Program-made: the position numbers and the translations under genes
In this document: one piece after another, positions 2,312 to 15,712 of the stretch
Position numbering within the stretch: position 1 is the first letter of the stretch
Layout: each line of letters begins with the position of its first letter
The notes under the pieces: generated by a model
Told to the model about the DNA's origin: nothing
The model's database searches: none
Seen by the model: the letters and a program-made list of their open reading frames with translations, nothing else
From: Promethearchaeota archaeon
GTDB lineage: Archaea > Asgardarchaeota > Lokiarchaeia > Sigyniarchaeales > SOKP01
Assembly: GCA_019058015.1 (NCBI GenBank)
Contig: JAHLWH010000138.1
Span: 1 to 32,013 of the forward strand
DNA length: 32,013 nt
Direction: 5' to 3'

Positions 2312-4240
2312 ATGTCTGATGTTCGCATTGGTGTATTTGTTTGTAGATGAGGTATAAATATTGCGGGGGTTGTCGATGTTTCAAAAACCGTCGAAGAGCT
2401 GGATAAAGAAGAAAATGTCTGGGCTTGGGAGTACTTAAATATATGCACGGACACAGGAGCAGATTTTATTACTGAAAAGATAGAAGAAAAAAATCTTGAA
2501 AGGGTTGTTGTAGCGGCTTGCACTCCAAGAACACATCAACCAGTATTTCACAGTATCCTAAAAGATGCAGGCTTGCCTCCACGAATGCTTGAATTTGTAA
2601 ATATCAGAGAGCATTGTAGTTTTGTCCATATGTCAGAACCAGAAGAAGCAACTGTAAAGGCAATTGAATTAATCAAAGCAGGTATCGCGAGAGCAAATTT
2701 ATTAGAAGCTGTGCCAACCAAAATAGTTCCCGTAAAGAAATCTGCTTTAGTTGTTGGTGGCGGAATAGCGGGTTTGACAGCAGCTATTGATTTAGGAAAT
2801 GAAGGCTTTAAAGTCACTCTAGTAGAAAAAAAATCTACTACGGGTGGAAGAATGGCTCAATTGGATCGAACTTTCCCAACAGATGATTGTAGTATCTGAA
2901 TCTTGGGTCCTAAAATGTTAGAAGCAAATCGTCATCCTAATATTACTATAATGTCTCTAGCTGAAATAAAAGAGATAACAGGATATATTGGAAACTTCGA
3001 AGTTAAGGTACAGAAAAATCCAAGATATGTGTATGAAGAAACTTGCACGGGTTGTGGTCAGTGTACGGATGTTTGTCCAATATACATTCCAAACTATTTC
3101 GATGAAAATTTTTCAGCTAGAAAGTGTATTGACATTGCATTTGCACAAGCAGTTCCAGCAATTTACGACCTTGATAAAGAGTGGTGCGTAGAATGCTATG
3201 CTTGTGTTGATTCGTGTGATGTTCATTGTATTGATTTAAGTCAAGAACCCGAGATTGTTGAACTCGAAGTTGGAACGATTATAATCGCAACCGGTTGGGA
3301 CCTATATCAAGGAGATGAATATGGATACGGAAAATATGAAAATGTAGTAACACAAATTCAACTTGAAAGGATTCTCTCTCCAAATGGTCCAACTCTTGGC
3401 CATTTAAAGCGTCCATCCGATGGAAAGAGACCAAAAAACATATTATTTATTAATTGTGTTGGCTCAAGAAACGAGGAGCATCCGTGGTGCAGTAATGTAT
3501 GCTGTCTTTTATCAGTAAAAAATTCAAAACTAATAAAGTCAGAATATCCAGATGCAAATATTGTGGTTTCATACATAGATATGAGATGTGCAGGGAAAAT
3601 GTATGAAGAATATTATAAGCGTTCCAGAGAAGCCGGAATTATGTATATAAATGGGAAAGTAGGAAAATTAATTGAAGATCCAAAAACTAAGAATCTTGTC
3701 GCTAGTATGGAATCAATTGGGACTGGAGGTATTGTAGAATTTGAAGCTGATTTAGTAGTTCTATCTTCAGCATCATTACCTTCAGCTGGAACTGATGAGA
3801 TTGCACAAGTTCTAAAATTGGAGAAAAGCCCTAGTGGTTTCTTAAAGGAATTTCATCCAAGACTTGATCCCATCGAAACTAAGTCGCCTGGAATCTATAT
3901 TTGTGGTTCTTGCCAAGGGCAAAAAGCGATCGATGCAACTGTCAATCATGCAAGAGGGGCAGCACAAGCTGCTTCAATTCCGATGAACAAAGGAGAATTT
4001 GTTATTGAATTAATTCGGGCTGATCCGATTGATGAAAGGTGTGCAAAATGCTATATGTGTATAGAAACATGCCCTTATAGCGCCATCTCGGTTAATGAAG
4101 CTGGACAAATTGAAGTTGATCTTATAAGTTGTAGAGGATGCGGTATGTGTGCTGCAACTTGTCCATCAATCGCAATTGAGCTTCGTTATTACCGAGATTA
4201 TCAATTCAATGCAGTAATTGACTCATTATTCGAAGCATAA
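2312..4240 (+). CDS. hdrA: HdrA heterodisulfide reductase subunit A, selenoprotein with two in-frame UGA
   Basis: Reading through TGA at 2348-2350 and 2897-2899 gives one 642-residue protein that matches HdrA from end to end, so I treat both as Sec (residues 13 and 196). The N-terminal domain has VFVCRUGINIAG where the family has C-x-C-G-x-N. Next comes a FAD-binding motif VVGGGIAGLTAAIDL near residue 148, then DDCSIUILGPKM, where Cys is usual and Sec is known in methanogens. An inserted ferredoxin region follows (CTGCGQCTDVCP near 244, CVECYACVDSC near 290), with two C-terminal [4Fe-4S] motifs (CAKCYMCIETCP, CRGCGMCAATCP). HdrA is the flavin and Fe-S core that bifurcates or relays electrons between ferredoxin, HdrB/C-type partners and MvhD. 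The mvhD gene follows after 19 nt. No hdrB or hdrC is present here. The only SECIS seen is downstream of mvhD. Confidence 0.93.
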
Positions 4241-8584: not shown

Positions 8585-9053
8585 CTATTTCTTTAGTTTT
8601 TTAAAGTAATGGGCAAAATATTCATTTTCTTTTCCGAATTTTTTCATAATGATCTTTTTGAGTGAACCCATATCTAATCGTTGCTTGACCTTTTCTCATC
8701 AACATCCAGCATCAGGATGTAGCTTAATCTCACTATCTGGATACAAATTGAAATCCAAATTATCCCGAAGAGGCATAAACTGTCTATTAGGTCCATAAGC
8801 ATTCACAGCGCAGTCGTCGTATATCTCATTTTTTTGTGGATTCCAGAATAATTGTAGATAAGTTTTAATATAGCCCTCATATAAAGGGAATGGAGAATTT
8901 TCTGGATTTTCTAAAACATGTTTATCCACAATAGCTAATGCTTCAATAAATTTAGCGTCGTCCTTTACTAATACCTCATATTTTTTACCTTCATTGAGCC
9001 CTTTTACAGGTGCAAAAATTGTAAATTCAATTTTTTTAATTTTTCACCACCAT
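8585..9053 (-). CDS. MoaD/ThiS-like beta-grasp selenoprotein with Cys-Sec-Sec near the C-terminus
   Basis: The clean frame begins MDKHVLENPEN at 8929 and stops at TGA (8701-8699), but a second TGA follows directly (8698-8696). The frame then stays open for 36 more codons to TAG 8585, with a SECIS 11 nt later. Upstream the frame continues without a start to about 9040. Removing one A from the A5 run at 9040-9044 joins it to ATG 9053 (MVVKIKKIEFTIFAPV), for 155 residues in all with Sec118 and Sec119. The pattern is beta-strand start, VNAYGPNRQFMPL, then PDSEIKLHPDAGC. The last part matches the G-D-E-V-x-L-x-P-P-V-x-G-G end of MoaD/ThiS proteins, with the Gly-Gly tail replaced by G-C-U-U and then a basic tail. 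Function unknown; a sulfur/selenium carrier or redox role is inference. Confidence 0.72.
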
Positions 9054-9135: not shown

Positions 9136-10284
9136 TTATCTTTTTAGGTTATTTATATTTGCTGATGGCTTCTTCATATCTTTCCCAAAAACCATGGCTT
9201 CTTCATATCCTTCCCAAAAACCACGCCTTCCTAAAAATCTACCTAAATATACCATAGACAGCATCACAGGAACTTCCCAGAATAACCCCATTGTAGTACC
9301 TAACGCCGCAATTGAACCAACTCCATACATCGCAACAGCAACGGCAATAGCAATCTCAAAATGGCTCGAAGAGCCAATAATTATTGTAATTATTGCATAA
9401 CGATAGCTCAATTTTAACAGTTTGGTGATTAATATATTGTAACCAACAACAATAGCAAATCCAACTAAGAGGGGGATAGTAATTAATAACAATAAATCTG
9501 GGTTTCCTACAAGGACTTCGCCGTTTAATGAAAATAATACAACTAAAGTCATCAGCAATGCAATTATTGCTACTGTCGATACAGCGGGTTTATACTTAGT
9601 GTTAAACCACACCTCCCCTTTTGTTTTAGTTAAAGCTTTCTTAGTTATTATCCCTAACAATAGTGGTAGCCCAATAAATACAGCTAAAGAAATCAATAAG
9701 GTCATCGGATCTAAAGGAATTTTTTTCTCTAAAGTAATATTTGCTAGAAATACTAGGAGAGTTACAACAGGTATATACAAAAAAATAATAGTGACCGTAT
9801 TTAAGCTAGTTGTAACTACATTTTGTTCTTGATTTCCTTTTGCCATCCAACCCCATACTAATACCATAGCAGTACATGGACTACTGCTAAGTAAAAGAAC
9901 AGCTAAAACGAGTTGTTCATTTACTCTTAGGAATAAGATTGCCATTGCAGCACCCACTAAAGGAGCTACAATCCAATTGGATAATAACGTTAATATTATT
10001 GGTTTGGGATTTTTTCCCAATTTTTTCAGCTCAGATACTTGGAGATTTAACATTGCTGGATACATCATAAGAAAAAGGCAGATACCAATAGGTATAGAAA
10101 TCCCCGCAATTTGCCAAGAATCAATCGTCTCACCTATTCCAGGAACGAACTGCGATAGTAAGATCCCTAATAACATGCATAATGCGATCCAAATAGGAAG
10201 TAATTTCTCGAAAAAACTGATCCCTTTAGGTTTTTCTTTATTACTTTCTACTTCCGCCACAAGTCCCGCCTCAATTTCTGTCAA
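9136..10284 (-). CDS. acr3: ACR3-family arsenite efflux transporter
   Basis: 382 residues with about ten hydrophobic helices. The family Cys in TM4 is present (SSSPCTAMVLVWGWMAKGN), as is the late helix motif GSSSHFEIAIAVAVAMYG. ACR3 exports arsenite, sometimes antimonite, using the proton gradient. The divergent arsR at 10420 and the inverted repeats between them indicate metalloid control. The C-terminus carries a tandem 29-bp duplication (9165-9222). Since 29 is not a multiple of 3, the second copy is read in another frame, giving the tail WEGYEEAMVFGKDMKKP. The change is beyond the last helix, so transport is probably unaffected. ATG 10284 is assumed; there is no strong Shine-Dalgarno. 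Confidence 0.88.
   Translation of the reverse strand: MTEIEAGLVAEVESNKEKPKGISFFEKLLPIWIALCMLLGILLSQFVPGIGETIDSWQIAGISIPIGICLFLMMYPAMLNLQVSELKKLGKNPKPIILTLLSNWIVAPLVGAAMAILFLRVNEQLVLAVLLLSSSPCTAMVLVWGWMAKGNQEQNVVTTSLNTVTIIFLYIPVVTLLVFLANITLEKKIPLDPMTLLISLAVFIGLPLLLGIITKKALTKTKGEVWFNTKYKPAVSTVAIIALLMTLVVLFSLNGEVLVGNPDLLLLITIPLLVGFAIVVGYNILITKLLKLSYRYAIITIIIGSSSHFEIAIAVAVAMYGVGSIAALGTTMGLFWEVPVMLSMVYLGRFLGRRGFWEGYEEAMVFGKDMKKPSANINNLKR
9165..9222. repeat. 29-bp tandem duplication in the 3' end of acr3
   Basis: Two adjacent 29-bp copies (9165-9193 and 9194-9222) differ by one base (T/C). They lie in the acr3 C-terminal codons and shift the frame of the tail. The near-identity suggests a recent slippage event. 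Confidence 0.85.
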
Positions 10285-10419: not shown

Positions 10420-10770
10420 ATGGAAAAAAAAACAATTGAAGAAATTAAAAAGTTAATTGAATGTATTGGTCTTAATGTAGATGTAAATGAATATATTAAA
10501 GAATTAAAGAAAAACAAAGATAAAATTTTATCTAATACTGACTTTAAAAAGATGGTTAATTTTCATAAAGCGCTTGGACATAGGTCTAGGTATTTAATTT
10601 ATAATTTGATAAAGAAAAAAAAAATGTGCATATGTGAGTTAAATGTGATTATAGACTTAGCCCAACCAACAATTTCACATCATGTGAAAATTTTAGAACA
10701 AGCAGATTTGATTGAAGGAATAAAAAATGGTAAATTTACTCATTATCAAATTATAAAGGAAATTAATTAG
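10420..10770 (+). CDS. arsR: ArsR-family metalloregulator next to acr3
   Basis: 116 residues. An N-terminal helical extension (about 1-45) precedes a winged helix. The metal-site motif KKMCICELNVII (C-x-C before the recognition helix) is the ArsR/SmtB alpha3-type site, and PTISHHVKILEQADLIEG is the DNA-recognition helix and turn. Such proteins repress metalloid resistance genes and release DNA on binding As(III) or another thiophilic ion. It is divergent from acr3, so autoregulation through the dyads at 10326-10376 is likely. Confidence 0.85.
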   Translation: MEKKTIEEIKKLIECIGLNVDVNEYIKELKKNKDKILSNTDFKKMVNFHKALGHRSRYLIYNLIKKKKMCICELNVIIDLAQPTISHHVKILEQADLIEGIKNGKFTHYQIIKEIN

Positions 10771-10824
10771 TTTCTAAAATTAATTAAGATTTGAACTTCT
10801 ATATTTAAAGTTATTTTTTAAGTT

Positions 10825-11292
10825 CTAGCAATTAATATTTTTTTCTCGTAATTTATCCAAGATATAATTCGAAATTTTTTCAACTTCTTCCTGATTCACA
10901 TCGTTTGCCTTAGGGATTTTTTGAAAAGCGTAAGGATCATTTAAATCTAAATCTTGTTTAGGAACGAATTGTTGAAGGTTAATTACTAAATCGGGTTTTA
11001 TATCAAGAGCTTTTAGGATCTGAACCATACATGATGTTCTACAACCATCAATTACTATTATATAATTTGAAAATAATCGTTGTTTAGTCATTTCAAAAAG
11101 ATTTTCTTTCTTAAGTAAATAATTTCTTAAAAAAAAAGTTGAGCAAAAAAATTCACTAAAATTTGAGATTGAATCATTAACATCTAAGTTTAATGCAATT
11201 TTGCGTGCCAATTCCCCATTATATTCAGATCCTGAGCAGGGTATTAAGATAATACTTTTTTCAGGTGTTTTCATTTCTGTCATTTGTATCAT
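10825..11292 (-). CDS. DGC-domain putative zinc/thiol protein
   Basis: 155 residues. It begins the family core with IILIPCSGSEYNGELARKIAL and has the signature Asp-Gly-Cys in IVIDGCRTSCMVQIL. The DGC family is named for this triad and is proposed to bind zinc through conserved Cys; its biochemical role is unknown. It is the last gene of a minus-strand operon, arsR2 / thioredoxin-like / this gene, with gaps of 12-13 nt. Three further DGC-type proteins lie in the facing cluster at 12822-14551. Control by ArsR and pairing with a thioredoxin-like protein suggest a thiol or metalloid role. The family call is firm; function is inference. Confidence 0.78.
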   Translation of the reverse strand: MIQMTEMKTPEKSIILIPCSGSEYNGELARKIALNLDVNDSISNFSEFFCSTFFLRNYLLKKENLFEMTKQRLFSNYIIVIDGCRTSCMVQILKALDIKPDLVINLQQFVPKQDLDLNDPYAFQKIPKANDVNQEEVEKISNYILDKLREKNINC

Positions 11293-11304
11293 CCAATTTT
11301 ATTA

Positions 11305-11589
11305 CTATATTATGCCTTTTTCTTTCAAAAGTTCAGGCAATTTTTGTTTGAATAGAAATGGAGATGTAAAAATTACTTTTCCCTCAACAACTACGCTATT
11401 ACCGCGCAAATTTAATTTACGAGCTTCTTCAGAATCTAAATTTTTAGTTTGAAATTTAATTTTTTTTTTATAATCCTGAAAAGCCGAAAAAACAGAATTC
11501 ATAAATCTTTCCCATATACACGCGCATGTATTTAATGGCACATAAATATCGACTTTAAGTTTATGATCTACATCATTATCCTTTGACAT
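11305..11589 (-). CDS. Small thioredoxin-fold protein with C-A-C motif
   Basis: 94 residues: a beta-strand KVDIYVPLNTCACIWERFMNSVF, then helix, strand (KIKFQTKNL), and the NSVVVEGKVIFTSPFLFKQKLPELL half typical of small ArsE/glutaredoxin-like folds, with VEGKVIF as the late hairpin. The active-site region is T-C-A-C rather than CxxC. Located 13 nt after arsR2 and 12 nt before a DGC gene, it is probably a cytosolic thiol carrier for that protein. Related small thioredoxin-like proteins occur as selenoproteins in selenium-linked gene clusters (from memory); no UGA is present here. Confidence 0.65.
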   Translation of the reverse strand: MSKDNDVDHKLKVDIYVPLNTCACIWERFMNSVFSAFQDYKKKIKFQTKNLDSEEARKLNLRGNSVVVEGKVIFTSPFLFKQKLPELLKEKGII

Positions 11590-11602
11590 AATACCACCCT
11601 AC

Positions 11603-11923
11603 TTAAATTTCAGCTTGTATTTCTACAATTTTTTTAAATTTTTTATTCCTTTTTATCAAATTATCGATAGTTGCTAACAATTTGAATATTTGAGGATCTT
11701 TAATTCTATAAAGCACTTTCACGCCTTCTTTTCTTCCAACGATTAAGTCAGCATTCATCAATTTTTTTAAATGCCTAGAAAGCGTAGATTGGGACTTTTC
11801 GAACACTTTCTCCAAGTCACAAGCGCACAATTCCTCTCCATGTCTAAGAAGGCTTAGAATTTCGAGACGAGATACATCAGACAGGGCGTTTAATAACTTT
11901 AATCTTAAATTTTGAAGATCCAC
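11603..11923 (-). CDS. Second ArsR-family regulator
   Basis: 106 residues. Winged helix with GEELCACDLEKVFEKSQSTLSRHLKKLMNADLIVGR; the C-A-C-D metal-site motif is ArsR-like. It is the first gene of the minus-strand operon with the thioredoxin-like and DGC genes and is divergent from the HdrA-N/ferredoxin/DGC-GcvH cluster. It is the natural regulator of both through the dyad at 12039-12054. It differs strongly from the 10420 paralogue. Confidence 0.85.
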   Translation of the reverse strand: MDLQNLRLKLLNALSDVSRLEILSLLRHGEELCACDLEKVFEKSQSTLSRHLKKLMNADLIVGRKEGVKVLYRIKDPQIFKLLATIDNLIKRNKKFKKIVEIQAEI

Positions 11924-12038
11924 ATTAAATTCAAATTTGCATTTTTATACATATATTCATAATAAATATCTTATTCTTAAAATAAAAAGGTTGTCATTAT
12001 AAAATAAATCTGTTTTAATTATTTAATTTTATGTGTTC

Positions 12039-12054
12039 ATGCGCGATAGTGCAT
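12039..12054. promoter_or_regulatory. Candidate ArsR2 operator in a divergent promoter
   Basis: ATGC-8 nt-GCAT dyad directly before a TATA-like ATATTTAAAT (12055-12064), in the 193-bp gap between arsR2 and the 12117 gene. It is the only GC-bearing dyad in an otherwise AT-only stretch. Role inferred from position. Confidence 0.4.
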
Positions 12055-12116
12055 ATATTTAAATAATATATTATTTATTTTATCATAGAAAAAAAAATTA
12101 ATTTCCGTGAAGAAGA

Positions 12117-12518
12117 ATGGCAGGAAACGAGAAAGAAAAGGAAGAAAAGGAAATCGGTTTTGTAATGTGCGTTTGTACTGGAAAATGCCCTGGATTCGCA
12201 AGAATGGATATTTGGGATTTTATCAATAGAGTTCGAGTGGAATTGCCAGTAGAATACGGTTTTATTCACCCACAATTATGTGAGGAAGATGGTGATAGAT
12301 TTCTTGATGATTTTTTACGACCTGGGAGAAAATATATAGTTGCTGGTTGCGCTCCAAATATGCAATATAAATTATTCCGGGACGCATTTAAAAAGGCAGG
12401 ACTTGATGTTAAAAAGGATCTAATTCCTTTAGACATACGAGAGATGACTACTGATGAAGCCGTTGATTTAGTGGAAAAGAAATTAGAAGAATTGGAGGAG
12501 GATGGTGATAATGGGTGA
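12117..12518 (+). CDS. Stand-alone HdrA N-terminal-domain protein
   Basis: 133 residues. After a Lys/Glu leader, GFVMCVCTGKCPGF resembles the C-x-C-G start of HdrA. IHPQLCEEDGDRFLDDFLR and YIVAGCAPNMQYKLFRDAFKKAGL match the HdrA segments that carry the Cys in M-C-S and the A-C-S/T-P-R-x-H motif. LIPLDIREM corresponds to the 'ANIREQC' segment, although its Cys is missing. HdrA's flavin and inserted ferredoxin domains are absent, but the next gene is a ferredoxin, so together they look like a split, flavin-free HdrA fragment. It would bind an Fe-S cluster or transfer sulfur or electrons to the downstream lipoyl/DGC proteins. Confidence 0.65.
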   Translation: MAGNEKEKEEKEIGFVMCVCTGKCPGFARMDIWDFINRVRVELPVEYGFIHPQLCEEDGDRFLDDFLRPGRKYIVAGCAPNMQYKLFRDAFKKAGLDVKKDLIPLDIREMTTDEAVDLVEKKLEELEEDGDNG

Positions 12519-12825
12519 AGGATACGATGCTGATAAAGAAACTTTTATGAGCGTTCCCAGGAAAAAAATACCATGGTGGCCTACGATAGATTACGAAAAG
12601 TGCGATTTTTGCATGGAATGCGATAAATTCTGTCCGCATAATGTATACGCAAAAACTAACGATGATAATAAAAAATTAATTGTAAAAAATCCTTATAATT
12701 GCGTCGTATTTTGTCGCGTATGTGCAAAAGCGTGTGCTCCAAACGCGTTAAAATTTCCGGATAAGAGAAAGATTACGAAATTAATTAAAAAATTGAGGTC
12801 AGAACAAAAAGGAGAATCACAGTGA
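12511..12825 (+). CDS. Two-cluster ferredoxin
   Basis: 104 residues from ATG 12511, about 10 nt after GGAGGAG (12494-12500). ATG 12502 lies too close to it. First cluster motif CDFCMECDKFCPHNVY; second NCVVFCRVCAKACAPNAL with a C-x3-C start instead of CxxC. A WWP segment precedes the first motif. It overlaps the HdrA-N gene by 8 nt and the DGC-GcvH gene by 4 nt, so the three are translationally coupled. It is the probable electron donor or acceptor of the cluster. Confidence 0.8.
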   Translation: MGEGYDADKETFMSVPRKKIPWWPTIDYEKCDFCMECDKFCPHNVYAKTNDDNKKLIVKNPYNCVVFCRVCAKACAPNALKFPDKRKITKLIKKLRSEQKGESQ

Positions 12826-13718
12826 CAAACTATAAGCTATGTATAATACCATGTAATGGATTAGATAAATCATTAGGGATAATTGCGCGAACTGTTGCCT
12901 TAAAAACCATCGAAAAAGAACCAAAAATAGAATTAATTTGCCCCGTTTTGTTAAACAATGGGGAGAAAAAATACGAAGAAATCTTAAAATCTTCTAAAAT
13001 TGTTGTAGTTGATGGTTGTATGACAGGATGTGCCACCAAATTAATAGAAGAAAGAAATCTAAAGATATTTAAAAAAGTATTCATCCCCGAAATGTCTAAA
13101 AAATTTAAATTAAAACCTGGAAAAAATTTAATCTTGACGGAGGAGGGAATTAACTTAGCTAAAACGATTGCTACTGAATTAATTGAATCATTAGATCGTT
13201 CTGATGACGAGATAACTATTGAATATAAAGAGATAGAAGATATTGACTATTTTGATATAACTGTTGATAAATTCTATTTTCGAGTGCCGAAAAGTGGATT
13301 TAATTTTAACGAAAACGATTGCTGGATAAAACCAGAGGGAGATTTAGGTTTAATTGGTATCACAGATTATTTACAGAACAGCGCCAGCGATATCATGTTC
13401 GTGGAATTACCCGAAATTGGTGGGAAAATTGAACAATTTGATGATGTTGGAAGTTTTGAATCGGTAAAAACTGTTTTACAATTGATTTCACCTGTGTCTG
13501 GAGAGATTGTATCTATAAACAAACTATTAGAGAAACAGCCAGAACTCTTAAACCAAGATCCTTACGGAAAAGGATGGTTTGCTGAAATAAAATTAGCAAA
13601 TTTCGAAGAAGATAAGGAACTTTTAATGGACTGTTCAGAATATTTTGAATATATGAAAAATAAAATTATGAAAGAAAGTGAGCATTTAAAAAAAATGAAA
13701 AGTGAGAAAAATGACTAA
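12822..13718 (+). CDS. Fusion of a DGC zinc/thiol domain with a GcvH-type lipoyl domain
   Basis: 298 residues, GTG start overlapping the ferredoxin stop, GGAG upstream. Residues 1-125 are a DGC domain: LCIIPCNGLDKS with Cys11 and VVVDGCMTGCATKL with Asp64-Gly65-Cys66 and Cys70. Residues about 148-285 are a glycine-cleavage-H-like domain: GLIGITDYLQNSASDIMFVELP, GSFESVKTVLQLISPVSGEIV with the lipoyl-lysine at 216, and LLNQDPYGKGWFAEIKL. No glycine cleavage P or T protein is nearby, so the lipoyl group probably carries thiol, sulfur or electrons for this cluster, as lipoate-binding proteins do in sulfur-oxidising sHdr systems. The coupling of a DGC domain to a lipoyl arm in one chain is unusual. 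Confidence 0.82.
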   Translation: MTNYKLCIIPCNGLDKSLGIIARTVALKTIEKEPKIELICPVLLNNGEKKYEEILKSSKIVVVDGCMTGCATKLIEERNLKIFKKVFIPEMSKKFKLKPGKNLILTEEGINLAKTIATELIESLDRSDDEITIEYKEIEDIDYFDITVDKFYFRVPKSGFNFNENDCWIKPEGDLGLIGITDYLQNSASDIMFVELPEIGGKIEQFDDVGSFESVKTVLQLISPVSGEIVSINKLLEKQPELLNQDPYGKGWFAEIKLANFEEDKELLMDCSEYFEYMKNKIMKESEHLKKMKSEKND

Positions 13719-14127
13719 AAAAAAAGTATTCATTATCCCTTGTAGCGGAATAGGCAAGGTTTTTGGTAGTATTGGCAGAGAAACCGCATATATCGTAGCA
13801 AATGAGTTATCAAGAGAAAAAGCTGCATTGGAATGTCTCCCTTTAATAGTGAAAGGGAAAAGCGAAGTTATTGAAGCGTTAAAAGAGAATAAGGTAATTA
13901 CGATTGATGGATGCCCTTTAAAGTGTTCTTATAATAATTTAATGGAGAAAGTGGGAAAGGTTGATTCACAATTCATGACTACAAATGTAGTTAAGGAAAA
14001 TCGGGACTTGAAACCTGAACCAAAAATTATACCAATAGGTGAAAACACTAAAAAATTATCCCAAAAATTAGCAGAACAAGTTGCAAAAGAAGTGGATAGA
14101 TTACTTGAAGAAGAGGGAGTGGAATAG
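13711..14127 (+). CDS. DGC-domain putative zinc/thiol protein
   Basis: 138 residues from ATG 13711, overlapping the previous stop by 8 nt; GTG 13702 is an alternative. Core FIIPCSGIGKVFGSIGRETAYIV (Cys11) and ITIDGCPLKCSYNNL (Asp66-Gly67-Cys68, Cys72). The C-terminal part is a charged helix. It is the free-standing counterpart of the DGC half of the upstream fusion and is translationally coupled to it. It may form a heteromer with it or accept thiol or metal from its lipoyl arm (inference). Confidence 0.78.
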   Translation: MTKKKVFIIPCSGIGKVFGSIGRETAYIVANELSREKAALECLPLIVKGKSEVIEALKENKVITIDGCPLKCSYNNLMEKVGKVDSQFMTTNVVKENRDLKPEPKIIPIGENTKKLSQKLAEQVAKEVDRLLEEEGVE

Positions 14128-14131
14128 TCAA

Positions 14132-14551
14132 ATGAAGAAGAAGGTGGGAATTATTGCATGTAGTGGGGAAAATTTATTGGGGGGCACTTTAAGCCGTGCA
14201 GCAGCAAGAATTGTAGTTGAAAAATTACGCCCTAATAATACTATTATATTATGTCAGCCTTTATTCGCAGCTGGTGGGTTAGAAAGGCATGGTGGACAAG
14301 ATGAGCGAGATTTTGCTAAAAATCACCCAACTATTACTATAGAAGGTTGTAAAGAAGAATGCTCAAAAATTGCGGTTGAGCGATATAGCGGACCTGTTGC
14401 AGCAACCATAAGAGTTGACGAGATTATGGAAGCTCATTTCGAACTAAATCCTGAATCTCGGGAAGATTTAGGAGAAAACGGGATGAAATTAGCAGAGATA
14501 GTCGCTGAAGAGATTGCGAAGAAGGTTGACGAATATTTTCGGAGAGAATAA
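14132..14551 (+). CDS. DGC-like protein with Glu-Gly-Cys variant
   Basis: 139 residues from ATG 14132, after a purine-rich GAGGGAG. It keeps the fold start VGIIACSGENLLGGTLSRAAARIV, but the triad reads Glu-Gly-Cys (ITIEGCKEECSKIAVERY), with a second Cys four residues on. A Gly/His loop GGLERHGGQDERDF is specific to this copy. It follows the DGC gene by 4 nt. It is a diverged fourth member of the set, perhaps with altered metal or substrate preference. Confidence 0.72.
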   Translation: MKKKVGIIACSGENLLGGTLSRAAARIVVEKLRPNNTIILCQPLFAAGGLERHGGQDERDFAKNHPTITIEGCKEECSKIAVERYSGPVAATIRVDEIMEAHFELNPESREDLGENGMKLAEIVAEEIAKKVDEYFRRE

Positions 14552-14578
14552 AAGGACTTCAGCCTTTTGCTTTTTTTT
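14550..14578 (+). terminator. Hairpin plus T8 at the end of the DGC operon
   Basis: Stem AAAAGG (14550-14555) with CCTTTT (14563-14568), a 7-nt loop, then GC and eight T (14571-14578). It begins inside the stop codon of the 14132 gene, so the DUF166 gene after it may be weakly coupled or have its own start site. Confidence 0.65.
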
Positions 14579-14610
14579 AAATTCCCTTTAATAATAAAAA
14601 GAGATGGTGT

Positions 14611-15330
14611 GTGATTAAAAGAATAAATGGTTTGAAAATTGGTATTATATCTGATGGAAAATACGGAGAAAGGGCTTATGAGAATTTTAGACAAATTTTT
14701 GCAACCGAATGGATTCTTGTTCCCGATATTCCATCAACAGTAATGCTTGATGAGGAAATTGAACTGGACATTCCCGACTGCGATCTTTACATTTCTTATG
14801 TAAGACATCCAGATATGATACTTCAGCTAGCAGAGCTTCAGAAATCTTTGATTTTAGGAATCACGCCTGGAATTGGATTATATCATCAAGCAAAACGGAT
14901 TAATCCTAAAGTTATTAGCCCTCGCACGATGTGTTCATTAGAACCAAACACTGGTATCCCAGAAGTGGATGAATTTGCGAAATATTTTGGAAGACCCATT
15001 TTTAATATAGAATCGAATTCCCAAGGAAATATAACTGATGTTTTCGTTATAAGGTCATCTCCTTGCGGTTCTTCTCAAGCTGGAGCAGATTTTTTTAAAA
15101 ATAAAAAGCTAAGCGTTCAGAATTTACAAGATCTCGCCCTAAGCGTGTGTCACGAATGCAGGGCACCAAGGTTCGGGCACACTTGTGACAAAGAAGTCTC
15201 TGGAATAATTCACATGTTATCGTTCGTAAGTAATATTAAACTTGACGATAATTCGGAGTTAAGTGAAGACTTGAAAATATTTATCAAAGATATTAAAATT
15301 GAATATCAAAAGCGTGCAAAAATCGAATAA
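14611..15330 (+). CDS. DUF166-family protein
   Basis: 239 residues, GTG start after GAGATGG. The N-terminus LKIGIISDGKYGERAYENF and the Cys-rich second half (RTMCSLEPNTGIPEVDEFA, IRSSPCGSSQAGADFF, SVCHECRAPRFGHTC) fit the archaeal DUF166 family, which is of unknown function. Conserved Cys in RSSPCGSS and CHECRAP suggest metal or Fe-S binding. It lies after the DGC cluster and before a permease remnant. From memory, DUF166 proteins occur as Sec-containing forms in some anaerobes; all positions here are Cys. Family call moderately sure. Confidence 0.68.
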   Translation: MIKRINGLKIGIISDGKYGERAYENFRQIFATEWILVPDIPSTVMLDEEIELDIPDCDLYISYVRHPDMILQLAELQKSLILGITPGIGLYHQAKRINPKVISPRTMCSLEPNTGIPEVDEFAKYFGRPIFNIESNSQGNITDVFVIRSSPCGSSQAGADFFKNKKLSVQNLQDLALSVCHECRAPRFGHTCDKEVSGIIHMLSFVSNIKLDDNSELSEDLKIFIKDIKIEYQKRAKIE

Positions 15331-15350: not shown

Positions 15351-15712
15351 GTTTTAAGTCTTTTATTAAAAATTTATCCAGAAAAAGGCGTTTATTTTTC
15401 TCAATATGCTTGGTATGAAATTCCATTCATTTACATCTATAATTATTTTTTACACGCCGGAGTTAGTTTAACTTTTGCCTTTCTAATGTCTGGGATTATT
15501 CAAGTGTTTATCTCTCAAGAGATTATCATAGAGTATCTCGGGTCTAAAAAGAAGAAAAATCTTTTATGATGGGACAGATCTATGATGTCGTTTCAATGGT
15601 ACCAAATAGTAGATTTTTTAAATGGAAAGGAGTTGCATTGTATACAGTAATATATTTCTTATTTTCTGTGATTTCCGGAATTTTTTATGGACTTTTATTA
15701 GGAGAATTATGA
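15351..15712 (+). pseudogene. Remnant of a YraQ/DUF318-type permease
   Basis: Fragment 1 (15351 to about 15570) reads VLSLLLKIYPEKGVYFSQ, then HAGVSLTFAFLMSGIIQVF and ISQEIIIEYLGSKKKKNLL, ending at TGA. This resembles the first helix and loop of DUF318 permeases. Fragment 2, in another frame (about 15597-15712), reads VPNSRFFKWKGVALYTV then IYFLFSVISGIFYGLLLGEL, like the end of a half-permease. The middle with the family's conserved core is gone and there is no start codon. These permeases commonly sit beside ArsR, thioredoxin and DGC-like genes, so this is probably the former efflux partner of the cluster. Confidence 0.6.

Follow-up and report, generated by a model that had tools for sequence, protein, structure and literature searches.

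A conserved module of DGC-domain, lipoyl-domain and iron-sulfur proteins encoded beside arsenic-resistance genes in archaea and bacteria

The window analysed here is a stretch of 32,013 nucleotides from a Lokiarchaeota-type Asgard MAG. Positions 10420-15330 encode four proteins of the Pfam DGC family (PF08859), all scoring above the curated gathering cut-off (41-61 bits against 27), and these are the only PF08859 copies in the 3.84-Mb genome. Their neighbours are an HdrA-N-like protein, a ferredoxin, a CxC thioredoxin-like protein and a DUF166 protein, and one DGC protein is fused to a GcvH domain. Of arsenic genes, the locus has ACR3, a pair of arsR genes and an ArsP permease with an internal deletion (Table 1). 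The original prediction, made from sequence alone, had proposed four DGC proteins with lipoyl, HdrA-N and ferredoxin partners, and all of these parts were confirmed close to where it had placed them. Its single ArsR regulator was corrected to two, and its gene overlaps of 4-8 nt did not hold, since the core genes overlap by about 17, 4 and 17 nt, depending on start choice. Scanning the window for Rfam families and tRNAs returned no matches.

Table 1. Features of the DGC locus, with positions in the window
Feature	Position	Strand	Evidence
ACR3 arsenite efflux permease	9136..10284	-	acr3 TIGR00832 E 2e-86
ArsR1 metalloregulator	10420..10770	+	HTH_5 E 7e-10; NF033788 above cut-off
DGC-A, fourth DGC paralogue	10825..11292	-	PF08859 43 bits
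TrxC, small thioredoxin-like protein	11305..11589	-	alignment of 14 sequences; weak TsoX-like match
ArsR2, divergent repressor	11603..11923	-	NF033788 84 bits
Divergent promoter region	11924..12116	.	comparison of 9 intergenic regions
HdrN, stand-alone HdrA N-terminal-domain protein	12117..12518	+	7bkb_A profile E 7.9e-5
2x[4Fe-4S] ferredoxin	12502..12825	+	Fer4_10
DGC-GcvH fusion	12822..13718	+	PF08859 + PF01597
DGC3	13702..14127	+	PF08859 57 bits
DGC4	14132..14551	+	PF08859 41 bits
DUF166 protein, Loki-lineage accessory	14611..15330	+	PF02593 E 4e-31
ArsP_1 permease pseudogene	15378..15709	+	tblastn 72% and 84% identity to L039 permease

The ACR3 permease is 96% identical to its relative in genome G002 and 69-79% identical to those of several others. 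ArsR1 contains three Cys and a KKMCICEL motif, while ArsR2 has exactly two Cys, in ELCACDL, a pattern also found in its Loki orthologues; in another ArsR, the two-Cys pattern goes with MAs(III) sensing (PMC11868830). Comparison of the intergenic regions of Loki relatives, performed without a shuffle control, revealed an ATGC[G/A]-N-CAT element directly before AT-rich/TATA-like sequence. In most Loki loci examined, DGC-A orthologues occupy the same position and the DUF166 gene is kept downstream; we regard DGC-A as an accessory partner in Lokiarchaeota, outside the five-gene core. For the predicted C-A-C thioredoxin-like protein, the C-x-C motif held and is invariant in the alignment, although the best family match is weak (TsoX, E 7e-4, 19.7 of 52 bits, below cut-off). 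The predicted permease remnant was also confirmed: it retains both ends of an ArsP_1 permease, from which about 196 middle codons have been lost with a change of frame. Initial ArsP queries did not match it, and its identity was resolved by a closer 343-aa homologue, L039 (ArsP_1 at E 2e-50), of which residues 37-97 (72%) and 294-343 (84%) are retained.

The family motif D/E-G-C-x3-C is present in the locus DGC proteins, with DGC4 carrying the EGC variant. Four Cys are invariant in all 66 DGC3 sequences and in all 58 DGC4 sequences, and structure modelling (pLDDT 93 for DGC4) places the invariant DGC Cys after strands 1-3, at one edge of the sheet. The start of DGC4 was taken as the ATG at 14132; longer starts are possible. 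Within the fusion, the GCV_H domain was detected at E 3e-35, with TIGR00527 also above cut-off, and the lipoyl lysine, K216 within ESVKT, is invariant in 74/74 fusions. The fusion model has a pLDDT of 93, and its GcvH half matches H-protein 1onl with a TM of 0.93. Lipoylation of this half is inferred, with no mass-spectrometry data. No convincing solved relative of the DGC proteins was found by sequence or fold: Foldseek matches were Rossmann/flavodoxin-like (lumazine synthase, ArsH, LMW phosphatase) and were set aside as unconvincing (best E 0.02). A Sec codon considered in genome G076 was rejected, as the TGA within that match fits a junction between two separate genes, DGC4 followed by GcvH.

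HdrN has no Pfam match to its HdrA-N domain; nevertheless, its Cys positions align with those of HdrA 7bkb_A, and five Cys are invariant in 73/73 sequences. The 133-aa protein consists of the HdrA N-terminal Fe-S domain only, and because it lacks the FAD/thioredoxin-reductase domain it is not an HdrA. The module ferredoxin has eight Cys invariant in 67/67 sequences. None of the NCBIfam models is specific to HdrN, DGC3 or DGC4.

A GTDB scan seeded with HdrN retrieved 80 loci, spanning approximately 12 phyla of archaea and bacteria (Acetobacterium, Clostridium ragsdalei, Bacteroidales, Bathyarchaeota and others). HdrN, ferredoxin, DGC and GcvH genes occur together in 79 of them, with gene order nearly always kept; the remaining locus, cut by a contig end, has ferredoxin and DGC without GcvH. 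The core HdrN-Fd-[DGC-GcvH]-DGC3-DGC4 is thus a conserved five-gene module. About a dozen related genomes also have the locus block, and together with the 80 loci across phyla this indicates that the arrangement is more than chance. It had been set beforehand that the prediction would fall if the neighbourhood were not conserved in relatives, or if DGC genes occurred dispersed, with no lipoyl/HdrA-N partners. Neither was observed, as all 80 HdrN loci have ferredoxin and DGC, and GcvH is missing only from the truncated one. Among 228 Asgard genomes, 52 encode DGC proteins, most of them with at least three copies, and the loci examined have these in tandem. Cultured organisms with the module include Acetobacterium species, Clostridium ragsdalei, Sedimentibacter saalensis, Formimonas and Lucifera. 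The HdrN-seeded scan under-counts DGC-GcvH loci without HdrN; such loci were seen in G081, G084 and G071, and they show that the DGC/GcvH part can do without HdrN and ferredoxin. A search of 72,556 plasmids yielded no HdrN match, and plasmid-borne spread of the module was rejected on this result. No description of the module was found in the open-access literature searched, and its five genes are without described function. The prediction is supported, and the system extends beyond what it had recognised.

Genes of arsenic resistance surround nearly all copies. Neighbours across the 80 HdrN loci include ArsR (66), ACR3 (33), ArsC (21), ArsM (16), ArsP (12) and ArsA (9); arsenic genes occur in 71/80 loci when ArsR is counted, and ACR3, ArsC, ArsM, ArsP, ArsA or ArsD in 53/80. 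Where at least 8 kb was available on both sides, 34 of 35 loci have ArsR or another ars gene. The nearest ArsR carries a CxC motif in 51/66 loci. As a control, ArsR or ACR3 occurs in 0/20 canonical GcvH loci of the same phylum, against 12 (ArsR) and 11 (ACR3) of 18 further Asgard DGC loci. At the genome level, ACR3 is present in 47/52 DGC-bearing and 113/176 other Asgard genomes (p 2e-4, not phylogeny-corrected). Co-occurrence with lipoate genes, a check suggested with the prediction, was seen in 30/80 HdrN loci, which have dihydrolipoyl dehydrogenase (Lpd) or lipoate ligase (LplA), and the source genome encodes both. The ArsR, ACR3, ArsC, ArsM, ArsP and ArsA neighbours support the metalloid part of the predicted thiol/metalloid function, and it is highly probable that the module belongs with arsenic resistance, although no expression or phenotype data exist. 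The near-constant gene order and the arsenic-resistance neighbourhood point to unknown arsenic handling in anaerobes.

Sulfur genes also occur near the module, which raises an alternative that we consider unlikely: a sulfur or persulfide module whose lipoyl arm bears sulfane sulfur, as in sHdr-LbpA, with a secondary arsenic link such as thioarsenate formation. In its favor, the sHdr system pairs lipoate-binding proteins with Hdr-like proteins (PMC6067878), sulfur-relay genes (TusA, DsrE, YeeE/YedE) flank some Asgard/Loki copies, DsrE-like small proteins lie near the G081 copy, and cysteine desulfurase and a rhodanese-like cluster occur in 10 and 8 HdrN loci, respectively. However, the TusA/YeeE/DsrE cluster is found in only 3/80 loci, against 71/80 for arsenic genes, HdrB/HdrC-like subunits were not seen among the recurrent neighbour families of the 80 loci, and the ArsR sites resemble the As(III) type 1 CxC.

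The predicted likeness to sHdr-LbpA held in part, as an analogy only. Shared features are a GcvH-like lipoyl protein alongside an Hdr-type Fe-S protein, nearby LplA with, in some cases, dihydrolipoamide dehydrogenase, and a lipoyl arm that would serve several sites with substrate (PMC6067878). The module differs in having the HdrA N-domain only, without HdrB or HdrC noticed among recurrent neighbours, in the fusion of its lipoyl domain to DGC, in its two to three more DGC proteins, and in an arsenic instead of a sulfur neighbourhood, mostly in anaerobes. With the glycine cleavage H-protein, the fusion shares the fold and the lipoyl lysine, but its GcvH is fused to DGC, and gcvT and gcvP were not picked up among the recurrent neighbours; in the same genome, further GcvH copies stand apart from the fusion (C129). 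With ars operons (ArsR-ACR3-ArsC-ArsM-ArsP-ArsA), the module shares islands, an ArsR with a CxC site and efflux permeases, yet none of its five proteins is, to our knowledge, a described Ars protein, and a 2018 survey of ars genes does not mention the glycine-cleavage, ferredoxin or zinc-binding parts (PMC6205960). The selenoprotein SAO/Tso organometal systems (PMC13188914) are likewise metalloid/organometal clusters of anaerobes, and TrxC and DUF166 weakly match the TsoX and DfsP models. On comparison with the parts named in that review, membership was rejected: those parts (SaoL/B/C/P/T/X, TsoA/B/C/Y) were not found at the locus, the best scores stayed below cut-off (DfsP 45 of 200 bits, TsoR 33-36 of 115), and no in-frame TGA extension past the stop was seen in any locus gene. 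The predicted selenium link is thus unsupported at the locus.

As the most likely reading, we propose a lipoyl swinging-arm system, induced by arsenic and fed by ferredoxin, which would reduce (methyl)arsenicals, or pass them between DGC thiols, before export. We place this proposal at slightly below even odds; the lipoylation of the arm, the path of the electrons, the substrate and the way the chemistry runs are all inferred, without biochemical or expression data. A trivalent arsenical would bind the CxC site of the ArsR repressor and release the operon. Ferredoxin would supply low-potential electrons, which HdrN, with its HdrA-type Fe-S domain, would relay to thiols. The GcvH half would be lipoylated by LplA, whose gene sometimes adjoins, and act as a swinging dithiol arm visiting the Cys sites of its own DGC domain, DGC3 and DGC4. 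A pentavalent arsenical, at best guess a methylated or thiolated arsenate, may be reduced at the DGC sites; alternatively, a trivalent arsenical may be kept as a cyclic dithio-arsenical and then passed on. The product would be exported by ACR3/ArsP or methylated by ArsM, and the oxidised arm re-reduced by ferredoxin/HdrN or dihydrolipoyl dehydrogenase. Besides the lack of such data, several points count against the proposal: ArsC in 21/80 islands would often make plain arsenate reduction by the module redundant, some DGC-GcvH loci do without HdrN and ferredoxin, other metals or persulfide can also be sensed by ArsR proteins, sulfur-relay genes flank some Asgard copies, and DGC has no solved relative.

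It is possible that the module is instead an arsenic relay without redox chemistry, in which lipoyl and DGC thiols take up As(III)/MAs(III) for delivery to ACR3, ArsA or ArsP, with ferredoxin and HdrN merely keeping thiols reduced. Dihydrolipoyl groups are a classic arsenite ligand, and lipoic acid binding is noted in PMC6205960; each DGC has four invariant Cys, and ArsA, ArsD, ACR3 and ArsP adjoin the module. Nevertheless, thiol upkeep alone would not call for a pair of dedicated low-potential Fe-S proteins, which virtually all copies encode, and the ArsD chaperone is already encoded in 6 islands. A very unlikely third reading is that C-As bonds would be cleaved anaerobically, or As(III) reduced to a state below +3, on the lipoyl arm, in a step that low-potential ferredoxin drives and that serves either catabolism or detoxification. 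ArsM in 16 loci, a PF04060 Fe-S domain protein in 11, the low potential offered by ferredoxin and HdrN, and the presence of the module in acetogens favor it; however, no corrinoid protein or non-ArsM methyltransferase is consistently linked, and the chemistry is purely inferred.

Lipoic acid is familiar as a target that arsenic damages, rather than as a defence against it. A bolder form of the swinging-arm proposal, which we are inclined to doubt, is that the module constitutes the first lipoic-acid-dependent metalloid pathway, in which ferredoxin and the HdrA-N protein would reduce arsenic on the DGC-fused H-protein. The arsenic, probably as methyl- or thio-arsenicals, would travel among three DGC sites as a covalent adduct of the dithiol. 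Such a pathway may cover arsenic transformations without a described enzyme, such as the reduction of DMAs(V) that has been observed with clostridia (PMC10579292). The presence of the module in cultured organisms makes the question testable in culture. If true, DGC domains, the stand-alone HdrA-N protein and a second kind of H-protein would gain a function, anaerobes would gain an arsenic transformation for which no enzyme has been described, and the module would supply candidate genes for those anaerobic conversions of arsenicals, in sediments and paddy soil, that lack known enzymes.

The window comes from an Asgard genome of 3.84 Mb (94% complete) near named Lokiarchaeota MAGs. Its module operon encodes a stand-alone HdrA N-terminal-domain protein (HdrN), a ferredoxin (Fd), a fusion of a DGC domain to a lipoyl H-protein domain (DGC-GcvH), DGC3, DGC4 and DUF166, and is divergent from an operon for a second ArsR, a small thioredoxin-like CxC protein (TrxC) and a fourth DGC paralogue (DGC-A). 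All four DGC proteins exceed the Pfam cut-off and the genome has no others; the start codons of Fd and DGC4 are uncertain. The gene overlaps of 4-8 nt in the original prediction did not hold, being ~17, 4 and 17 nt, while its permease remnant did: 3' of DUF166 lie both ends of an ArsP_1-family permease, with ~196 middle codons gone and the frame changed, and an intact homologue adjoins the module in genome G010. At several Loki loci, a small conserved ORF of ~76-84 aa (FPLYEGYI.YLQLF) was also seen close to either the module or ACR3. Separately, an in-frame TGA at codon 109 (DDCSI-TGA-ILGPKM) splits the window's HdrA gene, readthrough of which would give one 555-residue protein; its position is shared with a relative's genome, G002. 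As inferred from sequence alone, this is consistent with the HdrA selenoprotein reported from Asgard archaea (PMC11227280).

Coordinates of features in the window and in loci of relatives
Feature	Sequence	Position	Strand
HdrA gene, TGA-split	window	2573-4240	plus
Small conserved ORF	window	8699-8929	minus
ACR3	window	9136-10284	minus
ArsR1	window	10420-10770	plus
Operon ArsR2 > TrxC > DGC-A	window	11923 down to 10825	minus
Operon HdrN > Fd > DGC-GcvH > DGC3 > DGC4 > DUF166	window	12117-15330	plus
TusA-YeeE/YedE-DsrE-like operon	locus L038	12385-15791	
PF04060 protein	locus L117	1-627	
PF04060 protein	locus L049	12247-12831	

Orthologues of DGC-GcvH with 51-66% identity occur in ~12 genomes of the same family and order, where the same neighbours flank the divergent promoter on both sides wherever contigs reach far enough; more distant copies occur in other Asgard classes. 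A Pfam search found DGC in 52 of 228 Asgard genomes, mostly in three or more copies. In 18 further Asgard loci inspected, DGC genes were tandem, with GcvH in most, HdrN and Fd in 12, TrxC in 12, ArsR in 12 and ACR3 in 11. The co-occurrence of DGC with ACR3, proposed for checking in the original prediction, was positive: ACR3 is present in 47/52 Asgard genomes with DGC vs 113/176 others (Fisher p 2e-4, relatedness ignored). A second architecture without HdrN and Fd, consisting of DGC3, DGC4 and an unfused GcvH, mostly with TrxC, was found at L049 (G081), L050 (G071), L045 (G084), L171 (G168) and L169 (G175), so the fusion of GcvH to DGC is possibly secondary; the first three carry an extra CxxC thioredoxin-like protein (PPCIRC). 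In several Lokiarchaeota genomes (loci L038, L040, L041, L044) a TusA-YeeE/YedE-DsrE-like sulfur relay operon adjoins the module.

The HdrN alignment was scanned once against the GTDB genome collection, giving 132 confirmed relatives, and 80 loci were kept; such a scan misses loci without HdrN, such as those of G081, G084 and G071 (DGC3-DGC4-GcvH-TrxC). Fd and DGC lie beside HdrN in 80/80 loci and GcvH in 79/80, the single exception running off the contig edge. The one-strand order HdrN-Fd-DGC-GcvH-DGC3-DGC4 is kept in nearly all, and three Bathyarchaeota deviate (HdrN-Fd-DGC3-DGC4-DGC-GcvH, GcvH unfused). Named phyla represented are Bacillota (22 loci), Bacteroidota (15), Promethearchaeota (10), Actinomycetota (7), Heimdallarchaeota (5), Acidobacteriota (5), Bathyarchaeota (3) and, in smaller numbers, other phyla. 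In the fusion tree, one fully supported set unites the Asgard fusions, save L146 on a long, doubtful branch, and phyla mostly stay together, so the distribution does not reflect a recent local transfer. The fusion of L114, from a record titled Alphaproteobacteria, nests within Bacteroidota (99/90 support), and is likely from a mis-binned contig or a transfer. This survey confirmed the cluster originally predicted and found it conserved in Asgard and other phyla; it supports and extends its interpretation as a candidate undescribed thiol/metalloid system.

Neighbours of the 80 loci were clustered and representatives of most clusters checked with Pfam and/or NCBIfam, ArsD and some smaller clusters being named by sequence alone. 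The neighbours included ArsR (66 loci), MTH895/ArsE thioredoxin (36), ACR3 (33), ArsC-type proteins (21), dihydrolipoyl dehydrogenase (21), ArsM (16), ArsP (12), ArsA (9) and ArsD (6). LplA, the other co-occurrence proposed for checking, adjoins the module in 13; LplA and/or dihydrolipoyl dehydrogenase occur in 30/80, and the window's own genome encodes both. Where both flanks are 8 kb or longer, ArsR or another ars gene is present in 34 of 35 loci; in the control, 20 canonical Asgard GcvH loci trimmed to about equal size, ArsR and ACR3 are both absent. Association of the module with arsenic is very likely. A ~200-aa protein carrying the PF04060 Fe-S domain, which is also present in the acetyl-CoA synthase gamma subunit, adjoins the module in 11/80 loci and is often paired with cysteine desulfurase in Acetobacterium.

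The nearest ArsR has a CxC motif in 51 of 66 loci, similar to the type 1 site for As(III) in R773 ArsR (Cys32, Cys34, Cys37; PMC11868830); the third cysteine is missing at that place in 33/33 close CxC-bearing ArsR, and Loki ArsR2 has two cysteines only. Because MAs(III) can bind two-cysteine sites (PMC11868830), methylarsenite is a plausible, though not proven, inducer.

All 74 fusions (74/74) retain the lipoyl lysine (ESxK). HdrN has five invariant cysteines and Fd has eight. HdrN aligns with the HdrA N-terminal domain (7bkb_A, E 7.9e-5), including four cysteine positions, and four cysteines are kept in DGC3 (66/66) and DGC4 (58/58). AlphaFold models had a mean pLDDT of 93, and the GcvH half of the fusion matches solved H-proteins (TM 0.93 to 1onl); no convincing solved relative of DGC was found. 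DGC4 cysteines 10, 41, 73 and 77 come directly after strands 1, 2 and 3, so they likely lie on one sheet edge and could form a single thiol site, as inferred from secondary structure without coordinates.

By analogy, the closest system is the sHdr-LbpA pathway, in which GcvH-like lipoate-binding proteins with their own LplA serve an Hdr-like complex (PMC6067878). The logic is similar, but the parts are not identical, and the module's setting is arsenic rather than sulfur oxidation. As described in a review (PMC13188914), the SAO and Tso selenoprotein systems share an organometal theme with the module but not its parts. HdrN, DGC3 and DGC4 lack a specific NCBIfam model, and no description of the module was found in the open-access literature searched; subscription papers were outside the search, so an earlier description is not excluded. 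Novelty lies in how the parts are combined and in the conserved cluster that they form; the chemistry is only inferred.

The conserved cluster, its invariant lipoyl and cysteine sites, the arsenic islands and the LplA and/or dihydrolipoyl dehydrogenase genes of 30/80 loci form the demonstrated basis for a proposed mechanism. Arsenic would free ArsR, and the lipoyl arm would be reduced by Fd and HdrN or by dihydrolipoyl dehydrogenase. Reduced lipoyl dithiol is a textbook ligand of trivalent arsenicals. The arm may carry the arsenical among DGC sites, where a pentavalent form would be reduced or a trivalent one passed along, and the product would be exported via ACR3 or ArsP. We prefer the redox reading over a pure binding relay because both Fe-S proteins accompany the module throughout, although HdrN was itself the search seed; plain arsenate is not the preferred substrate because ArsC often shares the island. 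Taken whole, from induction through electron flow and shuttling to export, this scheme is inferred, its chemistry untested, and it could as easily prove wrong as right; in it, the module would handle arsenicals on a lipoyl arm.
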